The notes beneath the pieces are model-generated. The model did no database searches and had not been told where the DNA came from. It saw only the letters and a list, made by a program, of their open reading frames with translations. Positions 26,627-55,070 of a DNA stretch of 64,000 nucleotides are shown in pieces. The stretch's first letter is position 1. The number at the start of each line of letters is the position of its first letter. The position numbers and the translations under genes are program-made. The stretch spans positions 2,516,001 to 2,580,000 of the forward strand of contig JALDRJ010000002.1 in NCBI GenBank assembly GCA_031315865.1. Reading direction: 5' to 3'. The DNA comes from Nitrospirales bacterium. Its GTDB lineage: Bacteria; Nitrospirota; Nitrospiria; Nitrospirales; UBA8639.

Positions 26627-26676
26627 GTGTCAGTATACTGAAAGTGCCAGATTGTAGCGGGGAGGAACCAAAAATT

Positions 26677-27282
26677 ATGTCGCATGTCGAACAATATTTT
26701 GAGGAAGCTGGTCGAATACTTGAGCAATTAGATGCTGAAAAAGTGAATGGCATGGCTGAAGAATTAGCTCACCTTCGTGAACGAAACGGACGTCTCTTTT
26801 TGCTAGGTGTCGGCGGGAGTGCAGCCAATTGTAGTCATGCCGTAAATGATTTTCGTAAGTTATGCGGCATAGAGGCCTATACCCCTGTCGATAATGTTTC
26901 TGAATTGACCGCACGAACCAATGACGAAGGATGGGAAACGGTGTTTGTCGAATGGTTGAAGGTGAGTCGGGCGAATTCTAGCGATGCGCTTTTCGTGTTC
27001 TCAGTTGGTGGGGGGGATGCTGAGCATAATGTGAGCGTTAATTTGATTCGCGCTCTTGATGAAACAAAAAAAAGAGGACTGAAAATCTTTGGAGTGGTGG
27101 GCCGTCAGGGCGGGTATACTAAAGAAGTTGGTGATTGTGTGGTCGTGATTCCGACTGTCAATCATGATCATATCACTCCACATACAGAGGCGTTTCATGC
27201 GATTGTTTGGCATTGTCTTGTTTCCCACCCAAAGTTGCAGATACGTGGAACGAAATGGGAAACGGCTGTGCAAGGGGCATAG
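26677..27282 (+). CDS. gmhA: Phosphoheptose isomerase (SIS domain)
   Basis: The enzyme isomerises sedoheptulose-7-phosphate to D-glycero-D-manno-heptose-7-phosphate. The protein of 201 residues is a SIS domain with LFLLGVGGSAANCSHAVNDF at the phosphate site and FSVGGGDAEHNVSVNL as the second loop. The C-terminal helix TPHTEAFHAIVWHCL is the place of the catalytic Glu and His in GmhA. The ATG at 26677 follows a ggagg site; a frame extending to 26644 lacks one. It begins the heptose module. An insertion-sequence scar lies between it and gmhB. Confidence 0.87.
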   Translation: MSHVEQYFEEAGRILEQLDAEKVNGMAEELAHLRERNGRLFLLGVGGSAANCSHAVNDFRKLCGIEAYTPVDNVSELTARTNDEGWETVFVEWLKVSRANSSDALFVFSVGGGDAEHNVSVNLIRALDETKKRGLKIFGVVGRQGGYTKEVGDCVVVIPTVNHDHITPHTEAFHAIVWHCLVSHPKLQIRGTKWETAVQGA

Positions 27283-27432: not shown

Positions 27433-27966
27433 ATGCAGAAGGCAGTTTTTCTTGATCGTGATGGTGTGATTAATCATCCAATTATACGGCAAGGAAGACC
27501 TTTTGCTCCTACATCCATTGAGGAGTTCAAAATTTTTCCCGGTGTTCCTGAAGCGTTACAAGCATTGCATCAAGAGGGCTTTCTTCTGATCATTGCAACC
27601 AATCAACCGGACGTCGCGCGTGGGCTAATCTTGAAGGAAGATGTCGAGAAAATGCATCAGATTTTGCAGGAAACGCTCCCGTTGCAGGCGGTGAAGGTCT
27701 GTTATGAAACGGAAGAGTCCGGGAGTAGGTGCTATAAGCCCAATCCAGGAATGTTAATAGAGTCGGCTCGTGAGTTTAACATTGATCTGAAGCAGAGCTT
27801 TATGGTTGGGGATCGTTGGAGAGATGTTGGTTGTGGCCGAGCGGCTGGGTGTTACACGATTTTCATCGATCGAGGCTATACAGAACAGCTACGGGATAAA
27901 CCAGATGCGGTATGCGAGGGGCTCACGGAAGCAGTTCCCATAATTCTTCGTCACGCCGGCACTTAA
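27433..27966 (+). CDS. gmhB: D,D-heptose 1,7-bisphosphate phosphatase (HAD family)
   Basis: The 177-residue HAD phosphatase removes the C7 phosphate from heptose 1,7-bisphosphate. The nucleophile motif is FLDRDGVIN (residues 6-14), motif II lies in ATNQPDVARG, the motif III lysine in CYKPNPGML and motif IV is MVGDRWRDVGCG. The zinc-binding loop of E. coli GmhB (four Cys/His ligands) is shortened here to CYETEESGSRCYKP and only one or two ligands remain. Zinc may be absent. The ribosome site is poor, and the region upstream is the IS scar, so its expression may depend on read-through or on a promoter supplied there. Confidence 0.85.
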   Translation: MQKAVFLDRDGVINHPIIRQGRPFAPTSIEEFKIFPGVPEALQALHQEGFLLIIATNQPDVARGLILKEDVEKMHQILQETLPLQAVKVCYETEESGSRCYKPNPGMLIESAREFNIDLKQSFMVGDRWRDVGCGRAAGCYTIFIDRGYTEQLRDKPDAVCEGLTEAVPIILRHAGT

Positions 27967-27986: not shown

Positions 27987-28730
27987 ATGCCTAACCTATC
28001 TGAATTGAAGCTAAAGATTTTTGCTGACGGAGCAGATTTGGACAGCATTAAAGTCATGGCCGGTAATCCATGTATCAAGGGATTTACGACGAATCCAACA
28101 TTAATGCGCAAAGCTGGGGTGGTGGACTACCAAGCATTTGCACATGAGGTTCTCTCTGTTGTCCCTGATTTGCCAGTCTCCTTTGAGGTATTTGCTGATG
28201 ATTTCGATGAAATGGAACGGCAGGCCATGGAGATTGCTTCTTGGGGGAAAAATGTCAATGTGAAAGTTCCCGTGACGAACACAAAGCGTCAATTTAGCGG
28301 TCCGTTGATTAGACGACTCAACAAAAATGGTGTTCAGCTCAATGTCACGGCTGTGATGACACTGGATCAAGTGCAGTCCATTGTCGATTGCATTGATGCT
28401 GATACTCCGATCATCATCTCTGTCTTTGCTGGTCGTATCGCCGACACGGGAATAGATCCTATTCCAATCATGTGTGAAGCGGTCAGAATGATGAACGGCA
28501 AACCACAGGCTGAACTCCTGTGGGCGAGTCCGCGAGAGGTTCTTAATATCGTTCAAGCTGATCAGGCTGGCTGCCATATCCTGACCGCGACAAATGACAT
28601 TTTGAAAAAATTGTTTCTGCTCGGAAAAGATCATACTGAGTATTCTCTGGAGACGGTACAGATGTTCTATAAAGACGCTGCCGCCGCCGGTTTTAGCATC
28701 GTTGAAGCCTGTCAGCCTATCTCCGTTTGA
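27987..28730 (+). CDS. Transaldolase-family protein
   Basis: This 247-residue small transaldolase has KIFADGADLDSI at the start, a GFTTNPTLMRKAG substrate loop and the Schiff-base lysine in NVNVKVPVT. ITAV-like (NVTAVMTLDQ) and SVFAGRIADTG strands complete the barrel. Transaldolase moves a dihydroxyacetone unit between sugar phosphates, and its products include sedoheptulose-7-phosphate, the substrate of GmhA. Its position inside the heptose module, with a strong ggaggag site and 20 bases from gmhB, suggests a dedicated supply role rather than housekeeping. A split transketolase at 37142-38916 makes the matching partner. Confidence 0.86.
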   Translation: MPNLSELKLKIFADGADLDSIKVMAGNPCIKGFTTNPTLMRKAGVVDYQAFAHEVLSVVPDLPVSFEVFADDFDEMERQAMEIASWGKNVNVKVPVTNTKRQFSGPLIRRLNKNGVQLNVTAVMTLDQVQSIVDCIDADTPIIISVFAGRIADTGIDPIPIMCEAVRMMNGKPQAELLWASPREVLNIVQADQAGCHILTATNDILKKLFLLGKDHTEYSLETVQMFYKDAAAAGFSIVEACQPISV

Positions 28731-28764
28731 GTTACGGTAAAGGCAAAATTAGGAGCCATTGATT

Positions 28765-29760
28765 ATGAAACATGTCTTAGTCACGGGGGGAGCTGGATAC
28801 GTCGGTACTCTCCTTGTCCCTCAACTAGTGGAGACTGGGTATCAGGTCACCGTCTATGACAGTATGCTGTACGGGTGTGAACTCTTACCTCAAGAAGGGT
28901 TACGAATTCTCAAAGCCGATATCCGGGATACGAAGACCTTTCGGGAAGCGTGTAGTGGAGTTGAATCTGTGATTCATTTGGCCTGCATTTCTAATGATGC
29001 GGGTTTCGAATTAGATGAACAGTTGAGCGAACAAATCAACTATAGATGTTTTGAGCCTTTAGTTATGGCCGCGAAGGAGCAGGGTGTCAAACGCTTTATC
29101 TACGCCTCCTCTTCTTCGGTGTATGGGTATTCCGAGTCTCCTCGCGTAACAGAAGAACATCCTCTAGTTCCATTGACATTATACAACAAGTTCAAAGGTC
29201 TTTGTGAGCCACTGCTGTTCAAACATCAAGCGAAAAATTTTGTTTGTGTCACGATCAGACCCGCCACTATCTGTGGATACAGCCCTCGTCAGCGTCTTGA
29301 TTTGTCAGTGAATATTCTTACTAACCATGCTGTCAATAATAATAAGGTGACCGTATTTGGTGGCGAACAACAAAGACCAAATCTGCATATTCAGGACATG
29401 TGCGATTTGTATCGATTGCTTCTTGAGTTGCCCGATGCAAAGATCGCTGGTGAGACATTTAACGCAGGCTATCAGAATCAGACGATCAAAGAGATTGCGG
29501 ATATTGTCAAAAAGGTGGTTGAAGAGGAGTTTCCTGAAAAAGAGGATATCCCGATTGTGACGACGCCATCGAACGATAATCGTTCGTATCGTATCACTTC
29601 CGAAAAAATCACCGAAAAGCTTGGGTTTCGACCCAAGCGGGGAATCGAAGTCGCCGTGCGCGATCTGTGTGCCGCATTTAAAGCTGGAAAACTTCCCAAT
29701 AGCATGACGGATGACCAGTACTATAATGTGAAGGTTCTCAAACGTACTCGGGCTTGCTGA
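28765..29760 (+). CDS. NAD-dependent nucleotide-sugar SDR
   Basis: The 332-residue extended SDR has VTGGAGYVGTLL as the NAD-binding loop, ASSSSVYGY as the catalytic Ser region and a Tyr-Asn-Lys-Phe-Lys active site (LYNKFKG) in place of the common YxxSK. It lies in the cluster after the transaldolase gene and just before another SDR, with which it is coupled (stop TGA overlaps the next ATG). The product could modify the activated heptose, such as 4-keto reduction or epimerisation. This is an inference. An aggagcc ribosome site sits before the ATG at 28765. Confidence 0.82.
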   Translation: MKHVLVTGGAGYVGTLLVPQLVETGYQVTVYDSMLYGCELLPQEGLRILKADIRDTKTFREACSGVESVIHLACISNDAGFELDEQLSEQINYRCFEPLVMAAKEQGVKRFIYASSSSVYGYSESPRVTEEHPLVPLTLYNKFKGLCEPLLFKHQAKNFVCVTIRPATICGYSPRQRLDLSVNILTNHAVNNNKVTVFGGEQQRPNLHIQDMCDLYRLLLELPDAKIAGETFNAGYQNQTIKEIADIVKKVVEEEFPEKEDIPIVTTPSNDNRSYRITSEKITEKLGFRPKRGIEVAVRDLCAAFKAGKLPNSMTDDQYYNVKVLKRTRAC

Positions 29761-30758
29761 TGTCAAAACAACCTTGTGCTATCGTGACAGGAGGAGCTGG
29801 GTTCATCGGGAGCCATATGGTTGATCGACTGCTCGAGCATGAATTCCAGGTCCGTGCTATTGATAATATGGTTGGAGGTCGACGAGCTAATCTTGTGCAT
29901 CATGAACGTAATCCTGCCCTTGTCCTTGACGAGCGCGATATTCGCTCACTTGACCAAAAGGATTCAGTGTTCAGTGACGTCACGCACGTGTTTCACTTTG
30001 CAGGCATCGGAGATATTGTTCCTTCCATCGAACAACCAACTGAGTATCTGTCGACGAACGTGCAAGGGACTGTTCGAGTTCTTGAAGGTGCGCGTCATGT
30101 TGGCGTTAAAAAATTCGTGTATGCAGCTTCGTCATCTTGTTATGGAATTGCGCAGGTCCCCACAGATGAGACGCATGATATTTCTCCTCAATATCCTTAT
30201 GCGTTAAGCAAGTATCTTGGCGAGATGGCTGTGTTTCATTGGGGTAAGGTCTATCGATTACCCGTGAATTCTATTCGGATCTTTAATGCCTATGGAACTC
30301 GTTCTCGGACCTCAGGTGCCTATGGAGCTGTCTTTGGAGTTTTTCTCAGGCAAAAACTGGCCGGCAAGCCCTTTACGGTCGTAGGTGATGGTAGTCAAAC
30401 TAGAGATTTTCTGTACGTGACTGATGTTGCAGAAGCGTTTCGATTAGCTGGAATGACAGAGCTATGCGGGGAATATTGGAACCTAGGGGCCGGGAATCCT
30501 CAATCGGTCAACCGACTTGTTGAATTGCTTGAAGGGGATGTAGTTTATCTTCCCAAACGTCCTGGAGAGCCTGACTGTACTTGGGCCAATATTGGCAAGA
30601 TTCAGCGAGAGCTTCGGTGGAAACCTCTTGTGTCGTTTGAAGAAGGCGTCCATCGTATTCTTGCATCGATTGATTATTGGAGAGATGCTCCTTTATGGGA
30701 TCCTGACTCCATTAGTCTAGCGACACAAACTTGGTTTCGCTATCTCGGAGAGGCATAA
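29760..30758 (+). CDS. NAD-dependent nucleotide-sugar SDR (4-epimerase type)
   Basis: The 332-residue SDR has VTGGAGFIGSHMVDRLL, the cofactor-acidic AIDNMVGGRR, and the active-site sequence YAASSSCYG with PYALSKYLGE (Tyr-x-x-x-Lys). It also has VFGVFLRQ and the DFLYVTDVAEAF tract of UDP-galactose epimerase and related dTDP/GDP-sugar enzymes. The ATG lies within the TGA of the upstream SDR gene (TGATG). The sugar is not known. It could act in the same pathway as the HldE-like enzyme encoded 6 bases downstream. Confidence 0.85.
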   Translation: MSKQPCAIVTGGAGFIGSHMVDRLLEHEFQVRAIDNMVGGRRANLVHHERNPALVLDERDIRSLDQKDSVFSDVTHVFHFAGIGDIVPSIEQPTEYLSTNVQGTVRVLEGARHVGVKKFVYAASSSCYGIAQVPTDETHDISPQYPYALSKYLGEMAVFHWGKVYRLPVNSIRIFNAYGTRSRTSGAYGAVFGVFLRQKLAGKPFTVVGDGSQTRDFLYVTDVAEAFRLAGMTELCGEYWNLGAGNPQSVNRLVELLEGDVVYLPKRPGEPDCTWANIGKIQRELRWKPLVSFEEGVHRILASIDYWRDAPLWDPDSISLATQTWFRYLGEA

Positions 30759-30763
30759 AAATC

Positions 30764-32314
30764 ATGATGGCGTCTCTGACAAAAAAGTATCGTCATAAGA
30801 TCAAGAGTGTCGATGGGTTAAAGAGAGCTATTGGACCGCGGCCCCGTCGAAAAAAAGTCATTATGTGTCATGGAGTCTTTGATGTGGTTCATCCGGGTCA
30901 CCTTCGTCATCTCATTTATGCGAAAAGCAAAGCGTCTGTGCTAATTGCGAGCCTTACCGCAGATGTTCATATTTCCAAAGGGCAGCATCGCCCTTACGTC
31001 CCCCAAGACTTACGAGCGTTAAATTTAGCGGCTTTTGAAATAGTTGACTATGTCCTTATTGATTCTGAGCCAACTCCGATTGATAACATCCTTCGTCTCC
31101 AACCTGATTTTTTCGCAAAAGGCTATGAGTATAATGCCAAGGGAGTGCATCCGAAAACTGAGGAGGAAGTTGAAGCGCTTCGTTCGTATGGAGGGAGTAT
31201 GATTTTTACTCCTGGAGATGTGGTGTATTCGTCTACCAAACTCATTGATCTGGCTCCACCTCGGATTAATATCGAAAAACTTTTGACCCTTATGGAAGCT
31301 GAGAAAGTCACATTTGATGCGCTTAGAAAGAGTTTGGATAGCTTTCGGGGAAGACGCGTCCATGTCGTGGGAGACACGATTGTGGATAGCTACACGCAAA
31401 CCGCCATGGTTGGAGGTCAGACCAAGACGCCAACGATGAGTGTCTTATTTGAAGGTCGAACTGACTACATTGGTGGTGCGGGGATTGTGGCAAAACATCT
31501 ACGAGCAGCTGGGGGTAAAGTTATTTTTTCTACGATATTAGGAGATGACTTTCTCAAAGATTTTGTTTTAGACGGGGTAAAGCGTAGCGGAATAGACTGT
31601 TGTCCGATCATTGATTCGACCAGGCCGACGACGAATAAAAATGCGATAGTTGCGGAAGGTTATCGGTTACTCAAAGTGGATACCGTCGACAACAGATCTA
31701 TCTCGGATGAAATCGTAGAACAGTTGGCAGACACAATTTCTCGTACCTCGTGTGACGCGGTCGTATTTAGTGATTTTCGTCACGGAATTTTTAATCGACG
31801 TACCATTCCTAGACTTATTGATGCACTTCCGAAAGAAGCCTATCGTGTGGCCGATAGCCAAGTGGCCAGTCGGTGGGGCAATATCACGGAATTCCAAAAC
31901 TTTGACTTGATCACGCCAAATGAACGAGAAGCCAGATTTGCCTTGGCAGATCAAGATTCCGGCGTGCGATTTTTGGCCGCCCGCCTGTATCAAGATGCAC
32001 AATGTAAATTGTTAATCTTGAAGCTTGGAGATCGGGGCGTGCTGACGTGCCGAGGAGGAAATCATGAAGCATTAGATTCATATTTTGTCGTGGATAGTTT
32101 TGTAGAACGTTTAGTTGATGCCGTTGGAGCAGGGGATGCGTTGTTGGCCTATGCCACGCTGGCGATGGTTGCGACCAAATCAGAGACGATTGCTACCATC
32201 TTGGGGTCGATGGCCGCAGCTTGTGAATGTGAAAAAGATGGCAACGTTCCAATAACGCCTGAAGATGTGATGGTGAAAATTGATTTGGCTGAACGCGAGG
32301 CTCATTTCGCGTGA
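30764..32314 (+). CDS. Bifunctional heptose enzyme with swapped domains: nucleotidyltransferase + PfkB kinase
   Basis: The 516-residue protein combines a HIGH-type cytidylyltransferase-like domain (about 25-150, with MCHGVFDVVHPGH; HPGH at 43-46, and YSSTKL near 145) and a PfkB carbohydrate kinase (about 185-505, YIGGAGIVAKHLRAAGG and the anion-hole DAVGAGDALLAY). E. coli HldE has the kinase first and nucleotidyltransferase second; here the order is reversed. It should make heptose 1,7-bisphosphate and then the nucleotide-activated heptose around GmhB action. The start at 30764 has ggagagg eight bases ahead. The stop overlaps the next gene (GTGA). Confidence 0.87.
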   Translation: MMASLTKKYRHKIKSVDGLKRAIGPRPRRKKVIMCHGVFDVVHPGHLRHLIYAKSKASVLIASLTADVHISKGQHRPYVPQDLRALNLAAFEIVDYVLIDSEPTPIDNILRLQPDFFAKGYEYNAKGVHPKTEEEVEALRSYGGSMIFTPGDVVYSSTKLIDLAPPRINIEKLLTLMEAEKVTFDALRKSLDSFRGRRVHVVGDTIVDSYTQTAMVGGQTKTPTMSVLFEGRTDYIGGAGIVAKHLRAAGGKVIFSTILGDDFLKDFVLDGVKRSGIDCCPIIDSTRPTTNKNAIVAEGYRLLKVDTVDNRSISDEIVEQLADTISRTSCDAVVFSDFRHGIFNRRTIPRLIDALPKEAYRVADSQVASRWGNITEFQNFDLITPNEREARFALADQDSGVRFLAARLYQDAQCKLLILKLGDRGVLTCRGGNHEALDSYFVVDSFVERLVDAVGAGDALLAYATLAMVATKSETIATILGSMAAACECEKDGNVPITPEDVMVKIDLAEREAHFA

Positions 32315-33267
32315 GTGCAATCAAAGCTGCGATGCGATCCATAGTCGTTGGATTAGGCGTACAGGGCCATAAACGCCGACAGTTTGCCAAAGACGATTTT
32401 GTTGTGGCCGTTGATCCTGTCAATTCTGAGGCGGAGTATCGAACGGTCGAAGAAGTTCCTCTTTCTCTCTACGATGCGGCGTTAGTCTGTATACCGGATG
32501 AACCGAAAATTGACGTCCTTTCCTATCTCATTCGAAATCAGAAACATGTGCTGGTTGAAAAACCCCTATGGGCAAAAGACGATGTATTCATTCAGGAGCT
32601 CGATTGTCTTGCAAAACGCAACGGTGTGGTGTGCTACACGGCTTATAATCATCGTTTTGAACCTCATTTTGTTCGGCTGCGCAATATCATAGATTCGGGA
32701 GTGCTTGGCCCCCTTTTTCATTGTCGTATGTTCTATGGAAATGGAACGGCGCGGCTTGTCAAAGAGTCGCGGTGGCGGGACCAGGGGGCTGGCGTGCTAC
32801 CTGATCTTGGTTCCCATCTGCTAGATACGATTAAGTTTTGGTTTGGTGATCCCGGAGGGACGTTTTATGTGCAATCGGTCAACTGTTTTGAAAATCAGGC
32901 CCCAGATCATGTGATTGTGCGATCGAACAACACCATTCCACAAATTGAACTAGAAATGACCTTGCTTAGTTGGCGCAACCATTTTACGTGTGACCTGTTT
33001 GCAGAGAAGGGCAGCGCGCACATTCGTTCATTATGCAAATGGGGTCCGACGACATGTACGGTTCGGACGAGGGTCTTGCCCAGTGGTCGACCACCAGAAG
33101 AATCAGTCACATTGACACAAGATGACCCCACTTGGGAACTCGAGTACGAGTATTTTAAGTCGTTGTGTCACAAGAAGAAGCCCACCGACTTATCTACTGA
33201 TATCTGGCTCAATCATATGTTGGGGAAACTCGGAAGTGAAGCTCTAGAAAAATTGGGTATACCATGA
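32311..33267 (+). CDS. Gfo/Idh/MocA-family oxidoreductase
   Basis: The 318-residue protein has a dinucleotide fold SIVVGLGVQGHKRRQF and the EKP motif HVLVEKPLW. YNHRFEPHFVRLRNIIDSG and DLGSHLLDTIKFWFG match the C-terminal domain signatures. The reading frame uses GTG overlapping the previous stop. Such enzymes often oxidise C3 of a nucleotide sugar before PLP-dependent amination, and a DegT-type aminotransferase gene stands five genes later. The fold at the N-terminus is short, with a direct GxGxxG. The actual substrate may be an ADP- or GDP-heptose derivative; this is inference. Confidence 0.85.
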   Translation: MSAIKAAMRSIVVGLGVQGHKRRQFAKDDFVVAVDPVNSEAEYRTVEEVPLSLYDAALVCIPDEPKIDVLSYLIRNQKHVLVEKPLWAKDDVFIQELDCLAKRNGVVCYTAYNHRFEPHFVRLRNIIDSGVLGPLFHCRMFYGNGTARLVKESRWRDQGAGVLPDLGSHLLDTIKFWFGDPGGTFYVQSVNCFENQAPDHVIVRSNNTIPQIELEMTLLSWRNHFTCDLFAEKGSAHIRSLCKWGPTTCTVRTRVLPSGRPPEESVTLTQDDPTWELEYEYFKSLCHKKKPTDLSTDIWLNHMLGKLGSEALEKLGIP

Positions 33268-34580
33268 AACCGACCATTGGATACATTGGCATGACGCATT
33301 TGGGCGTGAACTCCGCTGCGGCATCAGCGGCGCATGGGTTCAATACTGTGTGTTTCGATCCTGCCACTCGCCTGATCGATCAATTAAATGCTGGTCAAGT
33401 CCATGTCGTTGAGCCAGGATTGTCAGAGTTGCTTGAATTGCATCGAGCAAATCTCACCTATACTGCGGATCCGACTGCTATTCGGAAATGCGAGGTCGTG
33501 TATATCTCGGCCGATGTAGCGACGGATGACCAAGGGCAAAGCGATTTATCCGAGATCGATCAACTCATTGCGCTGACTATTCCATGTCTTTCTCCAACTG
33601 CAACTCTCGTGATCTTATGCCAGGTACCTCCAGGATATTCTGACAAGGTCCCCCTGCCCAAATATCAGTTGTATTATCAGGTTGAAACGCTCATCTTTGG
33701 CTGCGCTGTCGAGCGAGCGATGTATCCGGAACGGTTTATTATTGGTTGTCATCAACCACAGGATCGACTACCCCAGGCCTATCGAGTGTTTTTGGAATCG
33801 TTCAACTGCCCAATTCTCCAGATGCGGTATTCCAGCGCTGAATTAGCGAAAATTTCGATTAATTGTTGTCTTGTTTCTATGGTGAGCGTGGCGAATACTC
33901 TCTCGGAACTCTGTGAGAACATCGAGGCAGATTGGAGTGAGATCGTCCCAGCCTTAAAGCTTGACAAGCGGATTGGCCCCCATGCCTACTTGAAGCCGGG
34001 TCTTGGGATTGCCGGCGGAAATTTAGAACGAGACCTGGCCACGGTCTGTCGTCTCTCTGGTAATTTTGGTACCGATACAACCGTTGTACGAAGCTGGATC
34101 CATAATAGTCAATATCGACGAGATTGGGTGCTTCGAACATTACAGGCTGAAGTCCTGCAGCAGGATCCTGATGCGCACGCGGCCATCCTTGGACTGGCAT
34201 ACAAAGAAAACACTCACTCGATTAAGAATTCACCGTCGATTCATTTACTCAGGCATATTGGTCATCTAACGGTGAAGGTCTTTGATCCCGTTGTCTCGGT
34301 TTCTCAGCTGGAACATCCTCGCATGACCAAAACGGCTTCGGCGTTTGAAGCCATACACGACGCGGATGTGGTGATGATCATGACGCCTTGGCAAGAGTTT
34401 CACGTTCTGGATCCCGTTCAGATGGCCGAAGCGATGTCTGGACGGACGGTGATCGATCCTTTTCAAGTCTTGGATGCGGACGCTTGCTTCAAGGCTGGCT
34501 TAAATTATTTCACACTTGGTCGTGAGCCACGACGTGTCGTTCCTGGACCAGTGGAGGTCCAAAAAACTCTTTATGCTTGA
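33264..34580 (+). CDS. Nucleotide-sugar dehydrogenase homologue lacking the catalytic cysteine
   Basis: The 438-residue protein has the three-domain outline of UDP-glucose/GDP-mannose dehydrogenases: N-terminal Rossmann fold, central helix ELAKISIN with the conserved Lys and Asn, and C-terminal UDP-binding domain (AILGLAYKENTHSIKNSP, then VIMTPW). Two motifs are altered. The dinucleotide loop GxGxxG is GMTHLG (9-14). The catalytic GGxC segment reads AGGNLERD, with Asn 253 where the nucleophilic Cys should be. Two-step oxidation to a uronate is therefore unlikely. The protein may do a single oxidation, another reaction, or none. The ATG overlaps the upstream gene by 4 bases. Confidence 0.78.
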   Translation: MKPTIGYIGMTHLGVNSAAASAAHGFNTVCFDPATRLIDQLNAGQVHVVEPGLSELLELHRANLTYTADPTAIRKCEVVYISADVATDDQGQSDLSEIDQLIALTIPCLSPTATLVILCQVPPGYSDKVPLPKYQLYYQVETLIFGCAVERAMYPERFIIGCHQPQDRLPQAYRVFLESFNCPILQMRYSSAELAKISINCCLVSMVSVANTLSELCENIEADWSEIVPALKLDKRIGPHAYLKPGLGIAGGNLERDLATVCRLSGNFGTDTTVVRSWIHNSQYRRDWVLRTLQAEVLQQDPDAHAAILGLAYKENTHSIKNSPSIHLLRHIGHLTVKVFDPVVSVSQLEHPRMTKTASAFEAIHDADVVMIMTPWQEFHVLDPVQMAEAMSGRTVIDPFQVLDADACFKAGLNYFTLGREPRRVVPGPVEVQKTLYA

Positions 34581-35433
34581 ACATCTTTATGCGCATCCAG
34601 TCATGCCTCAACGGGTCGTGGTGATCGGCGCTGGGGGGTTTGTCGGAGGAGCCATCATCAAACAATTAACGGTTGAAGGGGTATCGGTTTTGCCGATCGG
34701 GCGGTCGACCGTCGATTTACTTGCAAATGATGCCGCGCAAAAACTTCGTGAAACTTTACAGCCGGGCGACAGTGTCGTTCTCGTCTCAGCACAAGCCCCG
34801 GCCAAGACGGTCACGATGTTAATGGATAATCTACGGATGATTGAACCGGTGTGCAAAGTTGTAAGTTCTCTGGAAATGGCTCATCTTCTGTATATCAGTT
34901 CTGATGCGGTGTATGCGGATGAGGCGAATCCGGTAGACGAAGATTCCTCGATGGCCCCGACGACTCTTCATGGCATGATGCACGCTGCCCGTGAGTTGAT
35001 GTTGAAGTCGTCAACCGCTGCGCCTGTGGCTTGCCTTCGGCCCACGCTAATCTATGGGAAAGCGGATCCTCACAACGGATATGGTCCGAATCGATTTCGG
35101 CGGCAGGCAGAGAAAGGCGAACCTATTCAGATTTTTGGTGAAGGCGAAGAACAGCGAGACCACGTCTTAGTTGATGATGTCGCCAAGCTTGCATCACTCA
35201 CACTGGCGCACCGCAGTAAGGGCTCCTTAAATGTGGTGACTGGAGTATCCACTTCTTTTTCTGATATCGCGACGATGATTGCCAAGCAGTATGGAGGTTG
35301 TGTGGTCAGTCAGCCTCGCCCCGGACCTCGACCGCATCTTCTGCATCGATTTTTTAATACAGCAAATTGTCTAAAGGCATTTCCCACGTTTCGGTTTACA
35401 TCATTGGCAGACGGGCTTCTTCAAGTTTCTTAG
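34573..35433 (+). CDS. NAD-dependent SDR, paralogue of 53470-54381
   Basis: The 286-residue protein has RVVVIGAGGFVGGAII as NAD loop and YISSDAVYADE as catalytic Ser region. The usual Tyr-x-x-x-Lys position is not a plain match; THGMMHAARELM-like residues are there. It shares NGYGPNRFRRQAEKGEP and IFGEGEEQRDHV with the protein encoded at 53470-54381, where the same blocks read NAYGPNRFRRTM and LFGEGEERRDHI. Both are shorter than typical epimerases. The ATG at 34573 overlaps the previous stop and has ggaggtcc upstream. Function: nucleotide-sugar reductase or epimerase, unspecified. Confidence 0.75.
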   Translation: MLEHLYAHPVMPQRVVVIGAGGFVGGAIIKQLTVEGVSVLPIGRSTVDLLANDAAQKLRETLQPGDSVVLVSAQAPAKTVTMLMDNLRMIEPVCKVVSSLEMAHLLYISSDAVYADEANPVDEDSSMAPTTLHGMMHAARELMLKSSTAAPVACLRPTLIYGKADPHNGYGPNRFRRQAEKGEPIQIFGEGEEQRDHVLVDDVAKLASLTLAHRSKGSLNVVTGVSTSFSDIATMIAKQYGGCVVSQPRPGPRPHLLHRFFNTANCLKAFPTFRFTSLADGLLQVS

Positions 35434-35454: not shown

Positions 35455-36111
35455 ATGGCAGAAATTAATCTACTAGAAAAGTTGCCAAACACGAAGCGCA
35501 ATATACAAAAGCGTCAAGATGCACAGACATCTGAAAATATCGCGATTGCTCGTGAGTATGGAGCGCAGTATTTTGATGGTCCACGAGAATTAGGATATGG
35601 AGGGTATCGATATGATGGTCGGTGGATTCCTGTAGCTGAAGACATGGTGAAACACTTTGGGCTCAAGGCTGGAGACCGAGTTCTTGATGTGGGGTGCGCA
35701 AAAGGATTTTTAGTCAAGGATCTTATGAAGGTCTGCCCGGGATTAGATGTGTTTGGCATCGATATCTCTGAGTACGCGTTGATGCATTGTGAGCCTGAAA
35801 TTATAGGCCGGCTTCATTTGGGTAATGCAAAACGACTTCCCTTTCCTGACAAAAGTTTTGATGCGGTCATTTCGCTCAATACGATTCATAACCTGGATCG
35901 AACTGAAGCCGTCACGGCCATTGCAGAGATAGAGCGATTGGCGCCAGGGAGAGGATTTATTCAGGTCGATTCGTATCGGACAGCGGAGCAGCGGGAGATT
36001 TTTCTTTCTTGGGTGCTGACGGCCAAGTTTCATGATTATCCTGATGGGTGGATTTCAGTATTTCAGGAGGCGAATTTTACGGGAGATTGGAACTGGACAA
36101 TAGTGGAGTAA
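35455..36111 (+). CDS. Class I SAM-dependent methyltransferase
   Basis: The 218-residue protein has motif I VLDVGCAKGFLVKDL and the acidic loop VFGIDISEYAL. Motif IV-like SFDAVISLNTIHNLDR follows. It lies in the heptose module between two SDR genes, 22 bases after the first. It probably methylates a sugar hydroxyl or a phosphate, which is inference from context. The ribosome site aggtgaag precedes the ATG. Confidence 0.82.
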   Translation: MAEINLLEKLPNTKRNIQKRQDAQTSENIAIAREYGAQYFDGPRELGYGGYRYDGRWIPVAEDMVKHFGLKAGDRVLDVGCAKGFLVKDLMKVCPGLDVFGIDISEYALMHCEPEIIGRLHLGNAKRLPFPDKSFDAVISLNTIHNLDRTEAVTAIAEIERLAPGRGFIQVDSYRTAEQREIFLSWVLTAKFHDYPDGWISVFQEANFTGDWNWTIVE

Positions 36112-36147: not shown

Positions 36148-37137
36148 ATGAAAACGTATGCGGTTCTTGGAGGAGGTGGATCATTCGGCATTCATACGGC
36201 TTTGTACTTAATGGAGCAGGCTGATGTCAAAAAAGTAATTGGAATTGGTCGGAATCCCTTGAGGCCAGAGCCGTTTTCCTTAAACGTTGAGAAACATCCA
36301 AAGTATTCCTATCATGCCTATCATGTCACGTACGAATTAGATCTCTTGTTAGAATTACTCGATAAGGAGAAGCCGGAAGTAATCGTCAATTATGCTGCGC
36401 AAGGAGAGGGCGCTGTTTCCTGGAAACACTCGTGGCGATTTTTTGAAACCAATTCCATGGGCCTCGCTCGGCTTGCGGAGGAACTCATGAAACGGTCCTG
36501 GCTTGAACGATTTATTCAGATTGGCACATCGGAGATGTACGGGTCGGTGACACACGCCACGAAAGAAGACGAACCAATCAAGCCGACGAGTCCGTATGCT
36601 GCATCGAAAGTGGCCTTCGATATGTACTTAATGTCTGTGCATAAATTTTTAAAATTTCCGATGAACATCATTCGACCGTCGAATGCGTATTGTCCAGGAC
36701 AGTTGCTGCACCGTGTTGTTCCACGAGCTGTGATTAGTGGCCTGTTAAAGAAAAAGTTACCGCTTCATGGGGGAGGAAAAGCAGAAAAATCCTACATTCA
36801 CGCACGCGACTTAGGCCGAGCGATTCACTTGGTTTCTGAAAAAGCTCCACTGGGAACAACCTACAATGCGGGTCCGCTTCAACCAACGGCCATTCGGACG
36901 TTAGTGGAAAAAACAGCGAATGCTTTGGACATGAAGTTCGACGAACTTTGTGAAGTGACCGAAGATCGACTTGGGCAGGACTCGCGCTATTGGTTAGATT
37001 CCGGCGCTATTAAGCGAGATGTAGGATGGGAAGCCGAAATCGATCTTGATGAAGGTCTTCGAGAAATGGTGGCCTGGGGAAGAAAATACCTCGATCAACT
37101 GAAAAATTGGCCAATGGATTATGTGTTGAGAGGATGA
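36148..37137 (+). CDS. NAD-dependent SDR, dehydratase/epimerase type
   Basis: The 329-residue SDR has the slightly unusual NAD loop AVLGGGGSFGIHTAL, the strand VIVNYAAQGEGAVSW resembling RmlB dehydratases, and catalytic blocks QIGTSEMYGS and PYAASKVAFD (Tyr-x-x-x-Lys). The C-terminal part includes the SYIHARDLGRAIH substrate region. It resembles dTDP-glucose or GDP-mannose dehydratase family members. The nucleotide-sugar partner is unknown. The ggagag site is correct for the ATG. The next gene starts within a few bases. Confidence 0.83.
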   Translation: MKTYAVLGGGGSFGIHTALYLMEQADVKKVIGIGRNPLRPEPFSLNVEKHPKYSYHAYHVTYELDLLLELLDKEKPEVIVNYAAQGEGAVSWKHSWRFFETNSMGLARLAEELMKRSWLERFIQIGTSEMYGSVTHATKEDEPIKPTSPYAASKVAFDMYLMSVHKFLKFPMNIIRPSNAYCPGQLLHRVVPRAVISGLLKKKLPLHGGGKAEKSYIHARDLGRAIHLVSEKAPLGTTYNAGPLQPTAIRTLVEKTANALDMKFDELCEVTEDRLGQDSRYWLDSGAIKRDVGWEAEIDLDEGLREMVAWGRKYLDQLKNWPMDYVLRG

Positions 37138-37141
37138 CGTT

Positions 37142-37999
37142 ATGACTAGTGTACAAACGGCCCATGATTCTGTGTTAGACACGTTTGATGTCTCGACGGC
37201 TCGTAAGCGGTGTTTGATGTATCGACGGCGAATCCTTGAAATTTCACAACAAGTGACGGCTTTACACGTCGCCCCTGCATTTTCTTGTCTTGAGATGGTT
37301 GATGTGATTTATCATCAACTGATGCGGCCTGACTCTCAAGCGGGTCAGCTGGTTTACCGTGATAGTTTTCTTATGTCGAAGGGCCACGGATGTCTCTCGC
37401 AATACGTCGTATTAGAAGATATTGGTGTGCTGTCCCGAACAGATCTCGAAGAATATTGTACTCCGATTGGACAATTAGGCGCCCATCCTGATTATGGAGT
37501 TCCGGGCATTGAAGCTTCCACAGGTTCACTTGGTCATGGTATGGGGATTGCGACTGGCATGGCGTATGCTGATCAAATTAAAGATGATGATCGCTCGACC
37601 TTCGTTTTGATCTCGGATGGTGAGTTACAAGAAGGCTCAACGTGGGAAGCGATGATGATGGCTGCCAATTTAAAATTACGAAACCTTGTTGCCTTCGTCG
37701 ATCTCAACGACTTTGGTGGACTTGCTCGCATGAGCGATGGACATCCGGCTTTTTATCCAGTTTTGGACAAGATTCGTGCCTTTGGTTGGGAAGCGGTCGA
37801 AGTCAATGGACACGATAGTGCATCTATCGTGCAAGCGGTGAAAAGTCGTACTGGAAAGCAACCATATATGCTGGTTGGGAAAACCGTGAAGGGCAAGGGA
37901 GTGTCATTTATGGAGCATATTCCCATTTGGCATTATCGCTCTCCCAATCCAGAAGAGTATGCCCAGGCATTATCCGAGCTTGCAGAGGTCAGTGAATGA
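37142..37999 (+). CDS. Transketolase, N-terminal subunit
   Basis: Split transketolases consist of this thiamine-diphosphate-binding half and a separate C-terminal half. Signatures are SKGHGCLSQYVVLEDIG, the phosphate-site stretch STGSLGHGMGIATGMA and the ThDP/Mg motif SDGELQEGSTWEA with its downstream AFVDLNDFGG. Length 285 matches. With transaldolase from the same module it would interconvert sugar phosphates and raise sedoheptulose-7-phosphate, or transfer glycolaldehyde to a special acceptor. Its ATG start is 5 bases after the SDR stop, and its end overlaps the next ATG (ATGA). Confidence 0.9.
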   Translation: MTSVQTAHDSVLDTFDVSTARKRCLMYRRRILEISQQVTALHVAPAFSCLEMVDVIYHQLMRPDSQAGQLVYRDSFLMSKGHGCLSQYVVLEDIGVLSRTDLEEYCTPIGQLGAHPDYGVPGIEASTGSLGHGMGIATGMAYADQIKDDDRSTFVLISDGELQEGSTWEAMMMAANLKLRNLVAFVDLNDFGGLARMSDGHPAFYPVLDKIRAFGWEAVEVNGHDSASIVQAVKSRTGKQPYMLVGKTVKGKGVSFMEHIPIWHYRSPNPEEYAQALSELAEVSE

Positions 38000-38916
38000 G
38001 AAACACATTTGCGAGTACCTTTTATGAGGCAGGGAAAAAAGATGCTCGTTTGTCGGTGGTCGTCGCGGATATTTCTCCGGCGGGATCCATACAAAAATTT
38101 CGCGAAGATTTTCCTGCCCGGTTTGTGAATACTGGAGTATCCGAGCAAATTATGATTGGCATGTGTGCGGGAATGGCGTTAAGAGGTCTTCGTCCGTTTG
38201 CGTATACCATTGCTACATTTACCTTATTTCGTCCATTTGAGTTTGTTCGAGACGACCTGTGTTATCAAAATCTTCCTGTCACGATCGTCGGCATTGGAGG
38301 AGGTGTGACCTATTCCACCTTGGGGAGTACGCATCATGCAATGGAAGATGTCGCAGTGGCAGGTGCGATTCCCAATATGTCCATCATTGCTCCCTGTGAT
38401 CCGGAAGAAACCCGGGCAGCGACTCTCTGGTGCACGGAGCAGACGCGAGGTCCTGTATATTTGCGGCTTGGAAAAGCAGGAGAGCCTGACTTTACATCGC
38501 ACGTGAGCGATCCATGGGAATTCGGAAAAATTCGATTTCTACAAAAAGGCCATGATGTCTGTATCCTTTGCTATGGGCCAATCATGAAGTTAGCGTTTCA
38601 ATTGGCTCAAGCTTTTGAGAAGCAAGGAAAAACCGTCTCAGTTGTGTCGGTTCATACAGTAAAGCCATTAGACCGAACGGGACTCACCTCCGTACTAGCT
38701 GAACACAATCAGGTGATTGTACTTGAGGAATGTGTGCCTCGTGGGGGATTGGGGGGGCAGGTCAAAGAGCTTGCTTGGGAACAACAAGCACGGTGCCGCC
38801 TTGATACCTTTTCCCTTCGTGACGAATTCCTTCATTGTTATGGGACACATGCCGATTTACTCAAAGAGCATGGCTTAGAGCTTCACAGCATTTCAACTCG
38901 CTTAGGGCTTGTATGA
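37996..38916 (+). CDS. Transketolase, C-terminal subunit
   Basis: This 306-residue half carries the pyrimidine-binding domain (SVVVADISPAGSIQKF, then FVNTGVSEQIMIGMCAGMALRG, where Glu activates ThDP) and the C-terminal regulatory domain (VSVHTVKPLDRTGL). The ATGA overlap with the N-terminal subunit couples translation, as expected for a heterotetramer. It sits at the end of the heptose module. Dedicated transketolase genes occur in other glycan clusters, but the acceptor here is not shown by sequence. Confidence 0.9.
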   Translation: MRNTFASTFYEAGKKDARLSVVVADISPAGSIQKFREDFPARFVNTGVSEQIMIGMCAGMALRGLRPFAYTIATFTLFRPFEFVRDDLCYQNLPVTIVGIGGGVTYSTLGSTHHAMEDVAVAGAIPNMSIIAPCDPEETRAATLWCTEQTRGPVYLRLGKAGEPDFTSHVSDPWEFGKIRFLQKGHDVCILCYGPIMKLAFQLAQAFEKQGKTVSVVSVHTVKPLDRTGLTSVLAEHNQVIVLEECVPRGGLGGQVKELAWEQQARCRLDTFSLRDEFLHCYGTHADLLKEHGLELHSISTRLGLV

Positions 38917-40148
38917 CAAGCCCAAGTTCCTCTCCCATTATCCTTACGAACACAAAGCTTGCGATGTATGGTGGCTCTCCAGTTCGGGTCACACCGATGC
39001 CTCCTCGCTATGCGCTTGGCGAGGAAGAGAAGGCGATGATTGAGCAAGTGCTTGCCTATTACCGTGATCGAAAAGTTGACCCAGGTTATCAAGGTCCATT
39101 TGAAAAACTTTACACTGACGAATTCGTTGCGATGATGGATGGAGGCTATGCCGATGCAGTAGCTACAGGCACCGCAGCATTATTTGTTGCCATCGCGGCT
39201 CTAGAATTGGCCAAGGGAAGTGAGGTGTTGGTCTCGCCCATCACAGACCCAGGGACCATTAGTGCGATCATCTTGAATGGACTCACGCCACGCCTTATGG
39301 ATAGCAAGCAAGGAGAATACAATATCGGGGTCGACCAGTTTCTTGAACGCGTTACCCCCGCAACTAAAGCTGTAGTCCTCGTCCATGCTGTTGGTCGGGC
39401 GTGTGAAGTGGACAAAATTGTCCCAGAAGCGCGTAACAGAAATATTCGCGTGCTCGAAGATTGTAGCCAGGCTCATGGAGCAAAAATCTTCGGTCGTCCA
39501 GTAGGTACGTTTGGCGATATTGCCGCATTCTCCACAATGTACAGGAAGGCCCATATGACTGGGGCTTCCGGTGGTGTGGTGTATTCAAGAGATCTCGAAC
39601 GATTTCGTCTTGCATTGGCGTATGCAGATCGAGGCAAGCCGCGCTGGCGTAAAGACTATGATGATCGAAACCCTAAAGGGTTTTTATTTCCAGCGTTAAA
39701 TCTCCACACGGATGAAATTTCATGTGGTATTGGACTCGCTTCCTTGAAACGTCTTTCACATACTATGATGAGGCGTCTCTCATTTGTCGCCGATATTTCG
39801 GCGAAATTGCTCGAGAGCTCGAAAGTATGCCGACCCTATGGATATTCCCCAACTGATTCTCCCTTTACCTACCCAATTTTTGTAGACGAAAACTTCATTG
39901 ATGTGAGTAAGATCGAATTCGCTTCAGCCGTGGAAAAAGAGGGAATTGGTCTCAGCCCGCATTATGAATATCTTGTTTCAGACTGGCCATGGGTGCATTC
40001 GTATTTGTCAGACGAATTCGTACCGATCAATGCGAAGCGGGTTCGTGATCAAACCTTTAATCTCTACCTGAATGAGAATTATGGAACACAAGAGGTTGAG
40101 GATATCGCGACTGCCATTTGCAAAGTGGAGCGTTACTTTACAAGGTAA
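38913..40148 (+). CDS. DegT/DnrJ/EryC1/StrS-type PLP aminotransferase
   Basis: The 411-residue protein is a fold-I PLP enzyme acting on nucleotide keto-sugars. ATGTAALFVAIAAL is the PLP phosphate region, VLEDCSQAHGA the aspartate pair with PLP, and Lys 212 in FSTMYRKAHMTG the Schiff-base lysine. The C-terminal part (FPALNLHTDEISCGIG) matches the family. The ATG is inside the previous TGA (ATGA). It is preceded in the pathway by two oxidoreductase or dehydrogenase genes, so it may make an amino-sugar. A longer frame from 38835 would overlap the transketolase and is unlikely. Confidence 0.87.
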   Translation: MTSPSSSPIILTNTKLAMYGGSPVRVTPMPPRYALGEEEKAMIEQVLAYYRDRKVDPGYQGPFEKLYTDEFVAMMDGGYADAVATGTAALFVAIAALELAKGSEVLVSPITDPGTISAIILNGLTPRLMDSKQGEYNIGVDQFLERVTPATKAVVLVHAVGRACEVDKIVPEARNRNIRVLEDCSQAHGAKIFGRPVGTFGDIAAFSTMYRKAHMTGASGGVVYSRDLERFRLALAYADRGKPRWRKDYDDRNPKGFLFPALNLHTDEISCGIGLASLKRLSHTMMRRLSFVADISAKLLESSKVCRPYGYSPTDSPFTYPIFVDENFIDVSKIEFASAVEKEGIGLSPHYEYLVSDWPWVHSYLSDEFVPINAKRVRDQTFNLYLNENYGTQEVEDIATAICKVERYFTR

Positions 40149-42177: not shown

Positions 42178-43590
42178 ATGACTAAGTCTCAAGTGGTTTC
42201 GACATCATCCCATGATCTTCCTGATGGAACGATTGTCTCGAATGAAAATATTCCTCCATTCTATTTTGTCGTGGTGTTTTGGGGTAAGCAATTTGCTCGA
42301 TACTTGACTCGCTATTGTTTGCCGAGTTTACTGTCGACCAAAAACCTTCCTGCTCTGGGGGCGATGTCGCAGCATAAGTTTCTCTTTTGCACGACGAAGG
42401 AAGATTGGAATTCTCTTACGCAGACGACTATTTTTCTGCGACTACAAAAGCATATTACCCCTCACTTTATCGAAATTCCTCCTGCCCCACCTGAGAAGTC
42501 TGGCTGCGAGCACATGGGCGTAGGCCATAAGCTCGCAGCGCAACTGGCTTTTCAGGACCGAGCCTGTGGTGTGTTTCTCACACCGGATCTCATGGTCTCT
42601 GATGGGACGGTTTTGTCATTGCTCAGATGTGCCAAAGCTGGCTATAAAGTCGTGTTAACGGCAGCGCTTCGGTTTAGTGAGGAGTCATGGTTTGAGCAAC
42701 TTAAGGGGTTTGGTTATCTTATGGATGAAGAGAGCCAGGATGCGTGTGATTCTCCTTTAACCTTGACAAGTCGACAAATGGTTCAAGCAGGAATCCAAAG
42801 CTTCCATAGTCAAACTCTACGCTACGAGTGGGAAGCGCCTTATTTTTCCAGCTTTCCTTGTGCTTGCTGGTGGCGAGTGCCTGGCGAGGATGGACTTGTT
42901 CTACATTCTCTCAGTTGGGCTCCATTTTTATGCGACTATTCGGCAATCTCGACGCATGATACGAGTGTGTTCGATGTCTGGACCTTAGATGGAGACTATA
43001 TTCATCAAAATTTTAAACAATCAGAGGATATTTATGTTGTGACCGATTCGGATGAAATGATGCTCGTGAGTTGGGCTCCATCAGAAGATCGTGCTCAATC
43101 CACTCGGCCGAACCCTATTAAAGGTCTTCCAGTAGTAGGAAAATGGGTCAAGGGCGGGATTCTTAGAGCAGCCATGCTTAGCGGAATATTTGACGAATTA
43201 AAACAGCGGATTTTTTTCTTGCCCGTGAGATGGCATGCGAAAGAACTCACTGCAAATTGGGAAGTGACGGAACGACGGGCCCAGCAGACTTTGCAACACT
43301 ACCTGTGGGATTGTAGGTCTGACTTGCCTGAGTCCGATGCAGGGTGTTACCCAAAATCGCATAAGACCTCAAAGACTTTCAACGAACATGTTCGCTACTA
43401 TAGTTTTCTCCCGATGGTGACAATTGGACGTCTATGGATGATTCTGTCTGATCTTTATATGTTCAGGCGACGACTCACTTGGAAACTGGGGTTGGCTATG
43501 CGTGGAGACTCAGAAGTTTGGGGAAGAATCTTTCGACGTGTGGGGATTATTTGGAAGACGCTTCGCGGAGTGCCAATCAGGAACTTGTAG
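42178..43590 (+). CDS. FYF-FWGE family protein, paralogue 1 (putative glycan enzyme)
   Basis: This 470-residue protein is one of five paralogues in the window. It carries all shared blocks: PFYFVVVFWGKQF near residue 27, FLFCTTKEDW, the central MGVGHK and ACGVFLTPDLMVSDGTV, KVVLTAALRF, ETLRYEW-type LRYEWEAPYF, HDTSVFDVWTLDGDYIHQNF and VVTDSDEMMLVSW. Acidic pairs in DGD, DSDE and TPDL-SDG fit a GT-A-like nucleotide-sugar binding fold, but this is a guess. The N-terminus has a 26-residue extension not found in the others. It precedes a carbamoyltransferase, 218 bases on. Confidence 0.7.
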   Translation: MTKSQVVSTSSHDLPDGTIVSNENIPPFYFVVVFWGKQFARYLTRYCLPSLLSTKNLPALGAMSQHKFLFCTTKEDWNSLTQTTIFLRLQKHITPHFIEIPPAPPEKSGCEHMGVGHKLAAQLAFQDRACGVFLTPDLMVSDGTVLSLLRCAKAGYKVVLTAALRFSEESWFEQLKGFGYLMDEESQDACDSPLTLTSRQMVQAGIQSFHSQTLRYEWEAPYFSSFPCACWWRVPGEDGLVLHSLSWAPFLCDYSAISTHDTSVFDVWTLDGDYIHQNFKQSEDIYVVTDSDEMMLVSWAPSEDRAQSTRPNPIKGLPVVGKWVKGGILRAAMLSGIFDELKQRIFFLPVRWHAKELTANWEVTERRAQQTLQHYLWDCRSDLPESDAGCYPKSHKTSKTFNEHVRYYSFLPMVTIGRLWMILSDLYMFRRRLTWKLGLAMRGDSEVWGRIFRRVGIIWKTLRGVPIRNL

Positions 43591-54391: not shown

Positions 54392-55066
54392 ATGACTCAT
54401 AACGATTCTGGTGAAATTCAATACCGAGAGGCCATCCAGTTAATGAAGGCCAGGCCGGAACGCCTCGGCTTGATGAGCGGATGGTCCTGGCACGATGATC
54501 CCAAGCGACTGGTGTTTTTTCTGGCGCGTTATAAGTTTGTCGCAAAAATGCTGGACGGTTGTGAGCGTGTGTTAGAAGTCGGATGTGGCGATGGATTTGG
54601 AACGCGTATTGTGACTCAAACAGTCAAGCATGTGACAGGGGTTGATTTTGATCCAGAGTTTGTGAACTCAGCAAAGACCATCATGTCGGAACGTTGGCCT
54701 GCTACCTATCTAGTCCATAATATGCTCGAAGGGCCGGTGCCGGGCACGTTTGATGGAGCCTATTCTCTGGACGTGTTAGAGCATATTTCCAAACAAGACG
54801 AGTCTCGGTTTATCGAAAATATGGTTGCCCCCCTGACTCCCCATGGCGTGATGCTCATCGGTACGCCATCGTCACAGTCACAGGCCTATGCATCGGAACA
54901 CAGCCGGATTGGCCATGTGAATTGCAAAGACCAGAAAGAACTCAAAGTGGTAATGCAGCGGTGGTTTCACAATGTATTTATGTTTTCGATGAATGACGAA
55001 GTCGTTCATACGGGGTTTCATCCAATGTCTCATTATAACTTTTGCGTTTGCTGCGGAAAGAAATGA
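54392..55066 (+). CDS. Class I SAM-dependent methyltransferase
   Basis: The 224-residue protein has RVLEVGCGDGFGTRIV as motif I, VTGVDFDPEFV as acidic loop and GAYSLDVLEHISK as motif II/IV, the common layout of a UbiE/Coq5-like methyltransferase. A C-terminal His- and Cys-rich tail (HYNFCVCCGKK) is unusual and might bind metal. It follows the SDR, like its counterpart at 35455 in the heptose module, although the sequences are not obviously close. The ATG at 54392 follows gagaag. The next gene starts 4 bases later. Confidence 0.85.
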   Translation: MTHNDSGEIQYREAIQLMKARPERLGLMSGWSWHDDPKRLVFFLARYKFVAKMLDGCERVLEVGCGDGFGTRIVTQTVKHVTGVDFDPEFVNSAKTIMSERWPATYLVHNMLEGPVPGTFDGAYSLDVLEHISKQDESRFIENMVAPLTPHGVMLIGTPSSQSQAYASEHSRIGHVNCKDQKELKVVMQRWFHNVFMFSMNDEVVHTGFHPMSHYNFCVCCGKK

Positions 55067-55070
55067 GGAT

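Follow-up and report, generated by a model that had tools for sequence, protein, structure and literature searches.

Nucleotide-sugar dehydrogenases, among them uridine diphosphate (UDP)-glucose dehydrogenase (UGDH), are the closest described relatives of the protein analyzed here; they take a CH2OH group through a four-electron oxidation to a carboxylate. According to the excerpted text of PMC4794789, 18 residues are invariant in 229 of these enzymes, with Cys260 among them (the residue names Gly7 to Arg327 follow Streptococcus pyogenes numbering, and were mapped to residues of our protein by alignment). The same excerpts assign the first oxidation to a water activated by Asp264, with Lys204 and Asn208 stabilizing it, and the second oxidation to Cys260, whereas Tyr10, 98% conserved, is said to catalyze thioester hydrolysis and Arg327 binds the pyrophosphate of nicotinamide adenine dinucleotide (NAD). 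In the human enzyme, replacement of the corresponding cysteine leaves the reaction from UDP-glucose uncompleted (C276A) or leads to accumulation of a covalent adduct (C276S), as reported in excerpts of PMC3184952.

Here we describe a homolog of these enzymes that lacks the catalytic cysteine. It is encoded at 33264-34580 on the plus strand of a 64,000-nucleotide stretch of a Nitrospirales bacterium genome (assembly GCA_031315865.1, contig JALDRJ010000002.1), which we call the window; all window features given below lie on the same strand. The 438-residue product, a UDP-glucose/guanosine diphosphate (GDP)-mannose dehydrogenase homolog, is named UgdN here. An original prediction, made from the sequence of the window, had regarded it as an isolated oddity; it is in fact one member of a clade that has an obligate Gfo/Idh oxidoreductase partner and shortened forms in phages. 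From sequence conservation and gene linkage we favor, at a probability of about 0.5, reading UgdN as a two-electron oxidoreductase that works on a nucleotide sugar together with the Gfo/Idh protein and that cannot reach a uronic acid by the covalent path.

A Clade of Nucleotide-Sugar Dehydrogenase Homologs Without the Catalytic Cysteine

The reading frame of ugdN is real and uninterrupted, and its product matches the domains PF03721, PF00984 and PF03720, all three above the gathering score. It also reaches 203.4 bits against the subfamily model TIGR03026 (cut-off 189.8) and stays far under the cut-off of each equivalog among the matches listed. By sequence, the nearest solved relatives are the UDP-glucose dehydrogenases 3gg2 and 4a7p. 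HMMER alignments to these structures and to 3vtf place Asn253 opposite the cysteine of GGSCFPKD or GSCFPKD, bearing out the predicted asparagine at the nucleophile position (AGGNLERD). The codon is AAT (34020-34022), and the surrounding motif GGNLERD (34014-34034) retains Asp257, the equivalent of Asp264 in the family alignment. Three more family members are encoded in the same genome, with GGSCLPKD, GGHCIPLD and GGSCFGKD at this site (L003, L004 and L002).

The cellular set comprised the window gene and 36 related loci (n = 37); counts over 36 rows omit one locus, L082, which was read separately. Conservation of the asparagine among homologs, a check that the original prediction had proposed, is complete: Asn occupies position 253 in 37 of 37 cellular relatives (36 aligned rows and L082), His replaces the cysteine in all six viral relatives aligned, and Cys is found in 12 of 12 canonical paralogs. 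Relatives were collected with profiles built from Asn-bearing proteins, a search that would have listed any relative with Cys scoring about as high; none was present among the profile matches. In a maximum-likelihood tree a long branch with 100/100 support separates the 42 Cys-less rows from the others. The tree contains long branches (V_L097, V_L099, L092 and L093) and came with a program warning that long branches meet, and it was used solely for the separation of Cys-less from canonical proteins, the placement of viral rows being disregarded. UgdN relatives share about 39-61% identity.

A sequencing error or pseudogene at codon 253 is ruled out by these 37 asparagines and by the intact frames. 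The remaining way of explaining the missing thiol away, takeover of its role by another cysteine nearby, finds a candidate in C182, the best-conserved cysteine of the family (35/36 cellular rows). This residue is, however, missing from two of the six viral forms, and in the structural model it lies at the start of the strand that precedes the lysine-bearing helix, so that it appears unlikely as a stand-in nucleophile. C119, placed in the NAD pocket by homology, is a cysteine in 17 of 36 rows, and beyond the catalytic position no cysteine is invariant across the 36 cellular and six viral rows. The substitute cysteine that the original prediction had named as a way to refute it thus has no invariant counterpart, C182 coming nearest, and artefact and takeover taken together seem to us hardly credible.

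Relatives occur in one Rhodospirillales metagenome-assembled genome (MAG) and one Kiritimatiellota MAG. Sampling of the window's own phylum (395 and 396 genomes) turned up eight genomes with UgdN, the window's own among them. Within the class to which the Rhodospirillales MAG belongs, 28 of 385 genomes have the gene, counting that MAG, and of 387 genomes from the phylum of the Kiritimatiellota MAG one does, which is the MAG itself. A close UgdN is absent from four other genomes of the window's genus, which makes the distribution patchy; in view of these genus-mates the gene cassette around ugdN seems mobile or often lost. A plasmid search (459 records) yielded no recognized clade member, the 20 matches listed being at most about 30% identical. 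Isolated phages likewise gave no recognized member: the matches listed are 20-30% identical, with their Cys position unread, and are, where annotated, UDP-glucose or nucleotide-sugar dehydrogenases or VipA/TviB. Among the papers listed from the open-licence literature, none describes a natural Cys-less member or the cassette, and none was of use for keto-heptose or phage cassettes. Two papers considered as precedents offered none in their excerpted text, one on CDP-glucitol (PMC10918830) and one on UDP-4-keto-xylose in human UGDH (PMC11713868), where the ligand was made by Escherichia coli ArnA.

Residues Retained and Lost

Ten of the 18 invariants (Gly7, Gly12, Glu141, Glu201, Lys204, Asn208, Asn219, Gly258, Asp264 and Lys320) are kept in 36/36 cellular rows. 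Six others, Gly9, Thr83, Thr118, Pro140, Gly257 and Cys260, are replaced, which rules out UgdN as an ordinary UGDH. Since several of the defining features tested are lacking, UgdN is, as judged from sequence, a clade of the UDP-glucose dehydrogenase superfamily that should not be filed as a UDP-glucose dehydrogenase. The Rossmann loop GMTHLG (residues 9-14; 33288-33305) was correctly recognized in the original prediction, and loss of its second glycine proved to be family-wide: the first and third glycines of GxGxxG are present in all 36 rows and the second in none, residue 11 being Thr in 31 and Ser in 5. The next residue, at the Tyr10 position, is His12 in the window and His in every row. 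Canonical paralogs have Gly and Tyr at these two positions in 11 of 12 cases each, the twelfth being a gap. Further replacements affect Thr83 (Val or Ile, with no Thr in 36 rows), Thr118 (Gln120, 33621-33623; Gln in 36/36 cellular and 6/6 viral forms against Thr in 12/12 canonical ones) and Gly257 (Ala or Ser, with Gly in 3/36). In the motif VETLIFG (residues 140-146; 33681-33701) Glu141 is retained, whereas Pro140 has become Val (no Pro in 36 rows) and Glu145 Phe (36/36). The Arg327 position is Lys in 34 of 36 and the Ser117 position is divided between 19 Ser and 17 Cys; at the Asn287 position an Asn stands one column off in 29 of 36, possibly through an alignment shift. The equivalent of Asp29 is retained in 30 of 36 cellular forms.

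The active-site residues Lys196, Asn200, Asp257 and Arg236, the last equivalent to the cross-dimer Arg244, are invariant in the same 36 rows. Lys196 and Asn200 belong to the helix ELAKISIN (residues 193-200; 33840-33863) and correspond to Lys204 and Asn208; their retention, already noted for the window gene, extends to all six viral forms. The family thus has Lys-x3-Asn in its central helix without a cysteine nucleophile. Lys-x3-Asn is a mark of a wider superfamily of two-electron Rossmann dehydrogenases. The equivalents of Asp264, Lys204 and Asn208 being kept while those of Cys260 and Tyr10 are gone, the pattern, read from the alignment, points to loss of the second half-reaction.

The predicted fold agrees with membership in the superfamily. 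The AlphaFold 2 model of UgdN has a predicted local distance difference test (pLDDT) score of 83.7, falling below 50 in the loop 239-251 just before Asn253, and its best match in the PDB is 4a7p (Z 33.6, 3.0 Å over 384 residues; Foldseek was also run). Other nucleotide-sugar dehydrogenases rank next, followed by glycerol-3-phosphate dehydrogenase and ketopantoate reductase (Z about 18-20), both of which are two-electron enzymes. With UDP-glucose 6-dehydrogenases (4a7p, 3gg2, 2q3e) UgdN has in common the three Pfam domains, the predicted fold (Z about 33 to 4a7p), Lys-x3-Asn and the equivalents of Asp264, Lys320 and Arg244; it differs from them in the catalytic Cys (Asn or His instead), the GxGxxG motif and the equivalents of Tyr10, Thr118, Thr83, Pro140 and Glu145, and is 23% identical over the structural alignment. 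With glycerol-3-phosphate dehydrogenase and ketopantoate reductase the model shares a Rossmann and a helical domain at about 9-14% identity; unlike them, cellular UgdN retains the C-terminal nucleotide-binding domain, which phage short forms lack. A shared fold is no demonstration of function.

An Obligate Gfo/Idh Partner

The gene immediately upstream encodes a Gfo/Idh/MocA oxidoreductase (32311-33267), the stop codon of which overlaps the ugdN start. Gene linkage was tallied, at an identity of at least 35%, in 36 cellular loci; these extend to about 21 kb at most, and contig ends truncate many of them. A gfo gene lies directly upstream of ugdN in 35/36 loci, with a median gap of 24 bases; in the exception (L091, genome G987) it is found on a separate contig. 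As an independent test of presence, a Gfo profile was run over the same sample of 385 genomes; it matched 28 of them at E ≤ 1e-50, exactly the 28 genomes with UgdN, so that at the thresholds used both genes are present in 28 genomes and neither in 357. The Gfo/Idh oxidoreductase is an obligate partner of UgdN. It retains the lysine of its EKP motif and the Asp/His/Asp residues.

Such perfect co-occurrence, together with adjacency, would also be expected if UgdN were a catalytically silent partner, one that binds the nucleotide sugar, or serves as a scaffold for it, and offers it to the Gfo/Idh enzyme. The active-site Lys, Asn, Asp and Arg would be superfluous in such a subunit, however, and these are invariant; moreover gfo stands apart from ugdN in G987 and is missing beside ugdN in the phage short forms considered below. 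We therefore regard such a silent role as distinctly unlikely.

Short Forms in Phages

A scan of viral contigs using an alignment of the HldE-like protein of the cassette identified eight contigs. Five of them (L094, L097, L098, L102 and L104) encode a short, two-domain UgdN of about 215-235 residues that lacks the C-terminal nucleotide-binding domain and the stretch after beta-2. Two others of identical layout, L099 and L100, encode a full-length UgdN with gfo (L100 was left unaligned, as its matches and their positions duplicate those of L099), and the eighth, L101, has hldE with no ugdN within the stretch examined. Over the stretches examined, gfo is found in none of the five short-form contigs and in both full-length ones. 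All six aligned viral forms retain Lys196, Asn200, Arg236, Asp257, Gln120 and Tyr242. The second glycine position of the Rossmann loop is Gly in four of the five short forms, and the model of a short form (pLDDT 88.1) still matches UGDH and is predicted to be Rossmann-like. Compared with PHROGs, four of six contigs tested (L104, L098, L094 and L102) carry terminase, portal, head-tail or major-head genes; for L097 and L099 a single protein was tested, which is not diagnostic.

On these tailed-phage contigs the cassette consists of the HldE-like gene and the short ugdN, with transaldolase, short-chain dehydrogenase/reductase (SDR) genes and others in varying combinations, and in four of the five it has structural or packaging genes as neighbors. 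In four of the five short-form contigs, too, an E1 alpha/beta thiamine-diphosphate pair takes the place that a split transketolase holds in many cellular loci, and one further locus, L006, likewise has an E1-type gene.

Proposed Reaction and Its Alternatives

The redox activity, cofactor, substrate and oxidized position that we infer are as follows. The neighboring HldE-like enzyme would make the nucleotide sugar used by UgdN, which, in tandem with the adjoining Gfo/Idh oxidoreductase, would carry out a single NAD(H)-type step that transfers two electrons, turning an alcohol into a carbonyl or a carbonyl into an alcohol. The preserved machinery of the first oxidation would comprise the Lys-x3-Asn pair together with the Asp and the cross-dimer Arg. 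Neither a thiohemiacetal nor a thioester could form on the enzyme, because the thiol is absent, and the hydrolytic Tyr is absent too. Should the sugar be a heptose, C6 would be a secondary carbinol at the place where UGDH meets a CH2OH group, and oxidation would give a ketone; as a C6 ketone cannot become an acid, the thiol would be dispensable. The suggestion in the original prediction of only one oxidation fits the pattern of retained and lost residues; a new reaction on heptose, its other suggestion, is compatible with the gmhA/gmhB/hldE-like cassette, the heptose itself being presumptive.

Several observations weigh against this two-electron reading. Residues that contact NAD are altered as well (Gly9 to Thr or Ser, Thr83 to Val or Ile, Thr118 to Gln, Arg327 to Lys), and, going by the loss of Gly9, Thr83 and Thr118, UgdN may no longer be an ordinary NAD dehydrogenase. 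The stretch after beta-2 is missing from the short forms of phages, none of which has Asp at the Asp29 position (0/5). It is mainly on account of the changed NAD contacts that we retain the alternative of a non-redox or cofactor-repurposed enzyme, in which NAD binding has decayed and the Lys-Asn-Asp-Arg center serves an epimerase, lyase or isomerase step; short phage proteins that dispense with the post-beta-2 region and the C-terminal domain, yet keep these four residues, would suit it well. Retention of Asp29 in most cellular forms and of the first and third glycines in all of them, the Gly at the second position in most short phage forms, and the Rossmann-like prediction for the short form argue the other way, and we hold this alternative to be unlikely, if worth keeping in mind.

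The human C276A enzyme still oxidizes added free aldehyde, according to the excerpts of PMC3184952. Cysteine loss would accordingly block the normal route without by itself forbidding acid formation, and a uronic acid might still be made by oxidation of the aldehyde hydrate, with no covalent catalysis. Yet the equivalents of Tyr10, Thr118 and Gly257, which are linked to UDP binding, to the catalytic water or to the later stages of the reaction, have also been lost, and the asparagine appears fixed by selection in cellular forms rather than left to drift, so that we find such a route very improbable. Finally, the heptose-type genes score far below the curated equivalog cut-offs (51.3 against 209.45 bits for the GmhA-like, 113.9 against 178 for the GmhB-like and 133.7 against 521 for the HldE-like protein), and for this reason the sugar may be something other than an ordinary heptose.

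Remaining Genes of the Cassette

The window order is gmhA-like, gmhB-like, transaldolase, SDR1, SDR2, HldE-like, Gfo/Idh, ugdN and SDR3, followed by a methyltransferase, SDR4, the split transketolase and a DegT-type aminotransferase-like gene. The GmhA-like sugar-phosphate isomerase (26644-27282) is found in 22 of 36 loci, the GmhB-like HAD phosphatase (27433-27966) in 18, and the transaldolase (27987-28730; TIGR02134 above cut-off) in 22. SDR1 (28759-29760) and SDR2 (29754-30758) occur in 24/36 and 25/36 loci and retain Tyr-x3-Lys in 24/24 and 26/26 sequences, respectively. The HldE-like nucleotidyltransferase-kinase (30731-32314; 34/36) has its halves reversed relative to HldE. SDR3 (34516-35433, a mechanical open reading frame with a true start probably further downstream) or a paralog is present in 30/36, the methyltransferase (35455-36111) in 27/36, the 4,6-dehydratase-like SDR4 (36148-37137) in 9/36, the split transketolase-like pair (37142-38916; N part 37142-37999, C part 37996-38916) in 20/36 and the DegT/DnrJ/EryC1-type aminotransferase-like protein (38835-40148) in 10/36.

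Two of these proteins depart from textbook active sites. SDR3, the neighbor of UgdN, mostly has His-x3-His in place of Tyr-x3-Lys (Tyr to His in 25/28 and Lys to His in 27/28, for the window protein and its homologs in 27 loci), and thus two adjoining cassette enzymes both lack the textbook catalytic residues. The GmhA-like protein has Glu and Asp, invariant in 21/21, at positions aligned to a Gln and a Glu of 2xbl, which we take to be the catalytic residues of phosphoheptose isomerase; judging by this exchange, it may act on another sugar phosphate. Outside the cassette proper, five window proteins (42178-43590, 51633-53462, 54993-56480, 57529-59301 and 59311-60498) have, by eye, an FYF-x-VVFWG-like N-terminal start in common and look like an expanded family within a glycan locus; the fourth is extended at its C terminus by a region that we presume to be SPRY-like.

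Two known pathways offer comparisons. The adenosine diphosphate (ADP)-heptose pathway GmhA-HldE-GmhB has homologs of all three enzymes in the cassette, with a transaldolase, but here all three fall under the curated equivalog cut-offs, the HldE-like halves are in the opposite order and the GmhA-like residues are exchanged as described. In the WbpA/WbpB-type pair a UDP-GlcNAc 6-dehydrogenase is followed by a Gfo/Idh 3-dehydrogenase, and an aminotransferase takes part in the same nucleotide-sugar pathway. The cassette likewise brings together a member of the UGDH family and one of the Gfo/Idh family, but UgdN lacks the Cys and the genes upstream look more like a heptose route than one from UDP-GlcNAc.

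The thiamine-diphosphate enzyme near the cassette is either a split transketolase, as in the window, or of E1 alpha/beta type (L006 8877-9836, L094 6629-8432), and the occurrence of two types suggests a shared carboligation role. In a more speculative and rather improbable scheme, UgdN and the Gfo/Idh protein would form a dedicated redox pair producing a nucleotide-level keto-sugar (for a heptose, the 6-ketone), an acceptor for C-C bond formation by that enzyme, split transketolase in cells and E1 alpha/beta in phages, to give a branched or chain-extended sugar; tailed phages would carry the pathway too, with a minimal two-domain UgdN.

Implications

UgdN probably catalyzes a reaction shorter than, and distinct from, the one that makes UDP-glucuronic acid, using an unusual bacterial sugar and alongside its fixed partner. 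The clade replaces a residue, Cys260, that was reported as invariant across 229 nucleotide-sugar dehydrogenases, and current annotations probably list its members as UDP-glucose dehydrogenases that produce uronic acids. It may be viewed as a natural experiment in which a four-electron enzyme has been turned into something else, the first-oxidation machinery and the partner being kept and the Cys and Tyr replaced. The genes would seem to belong to a nucleotide-sugar pathway that has yet to be described and that occurs in several bacterial phyla and in phages.

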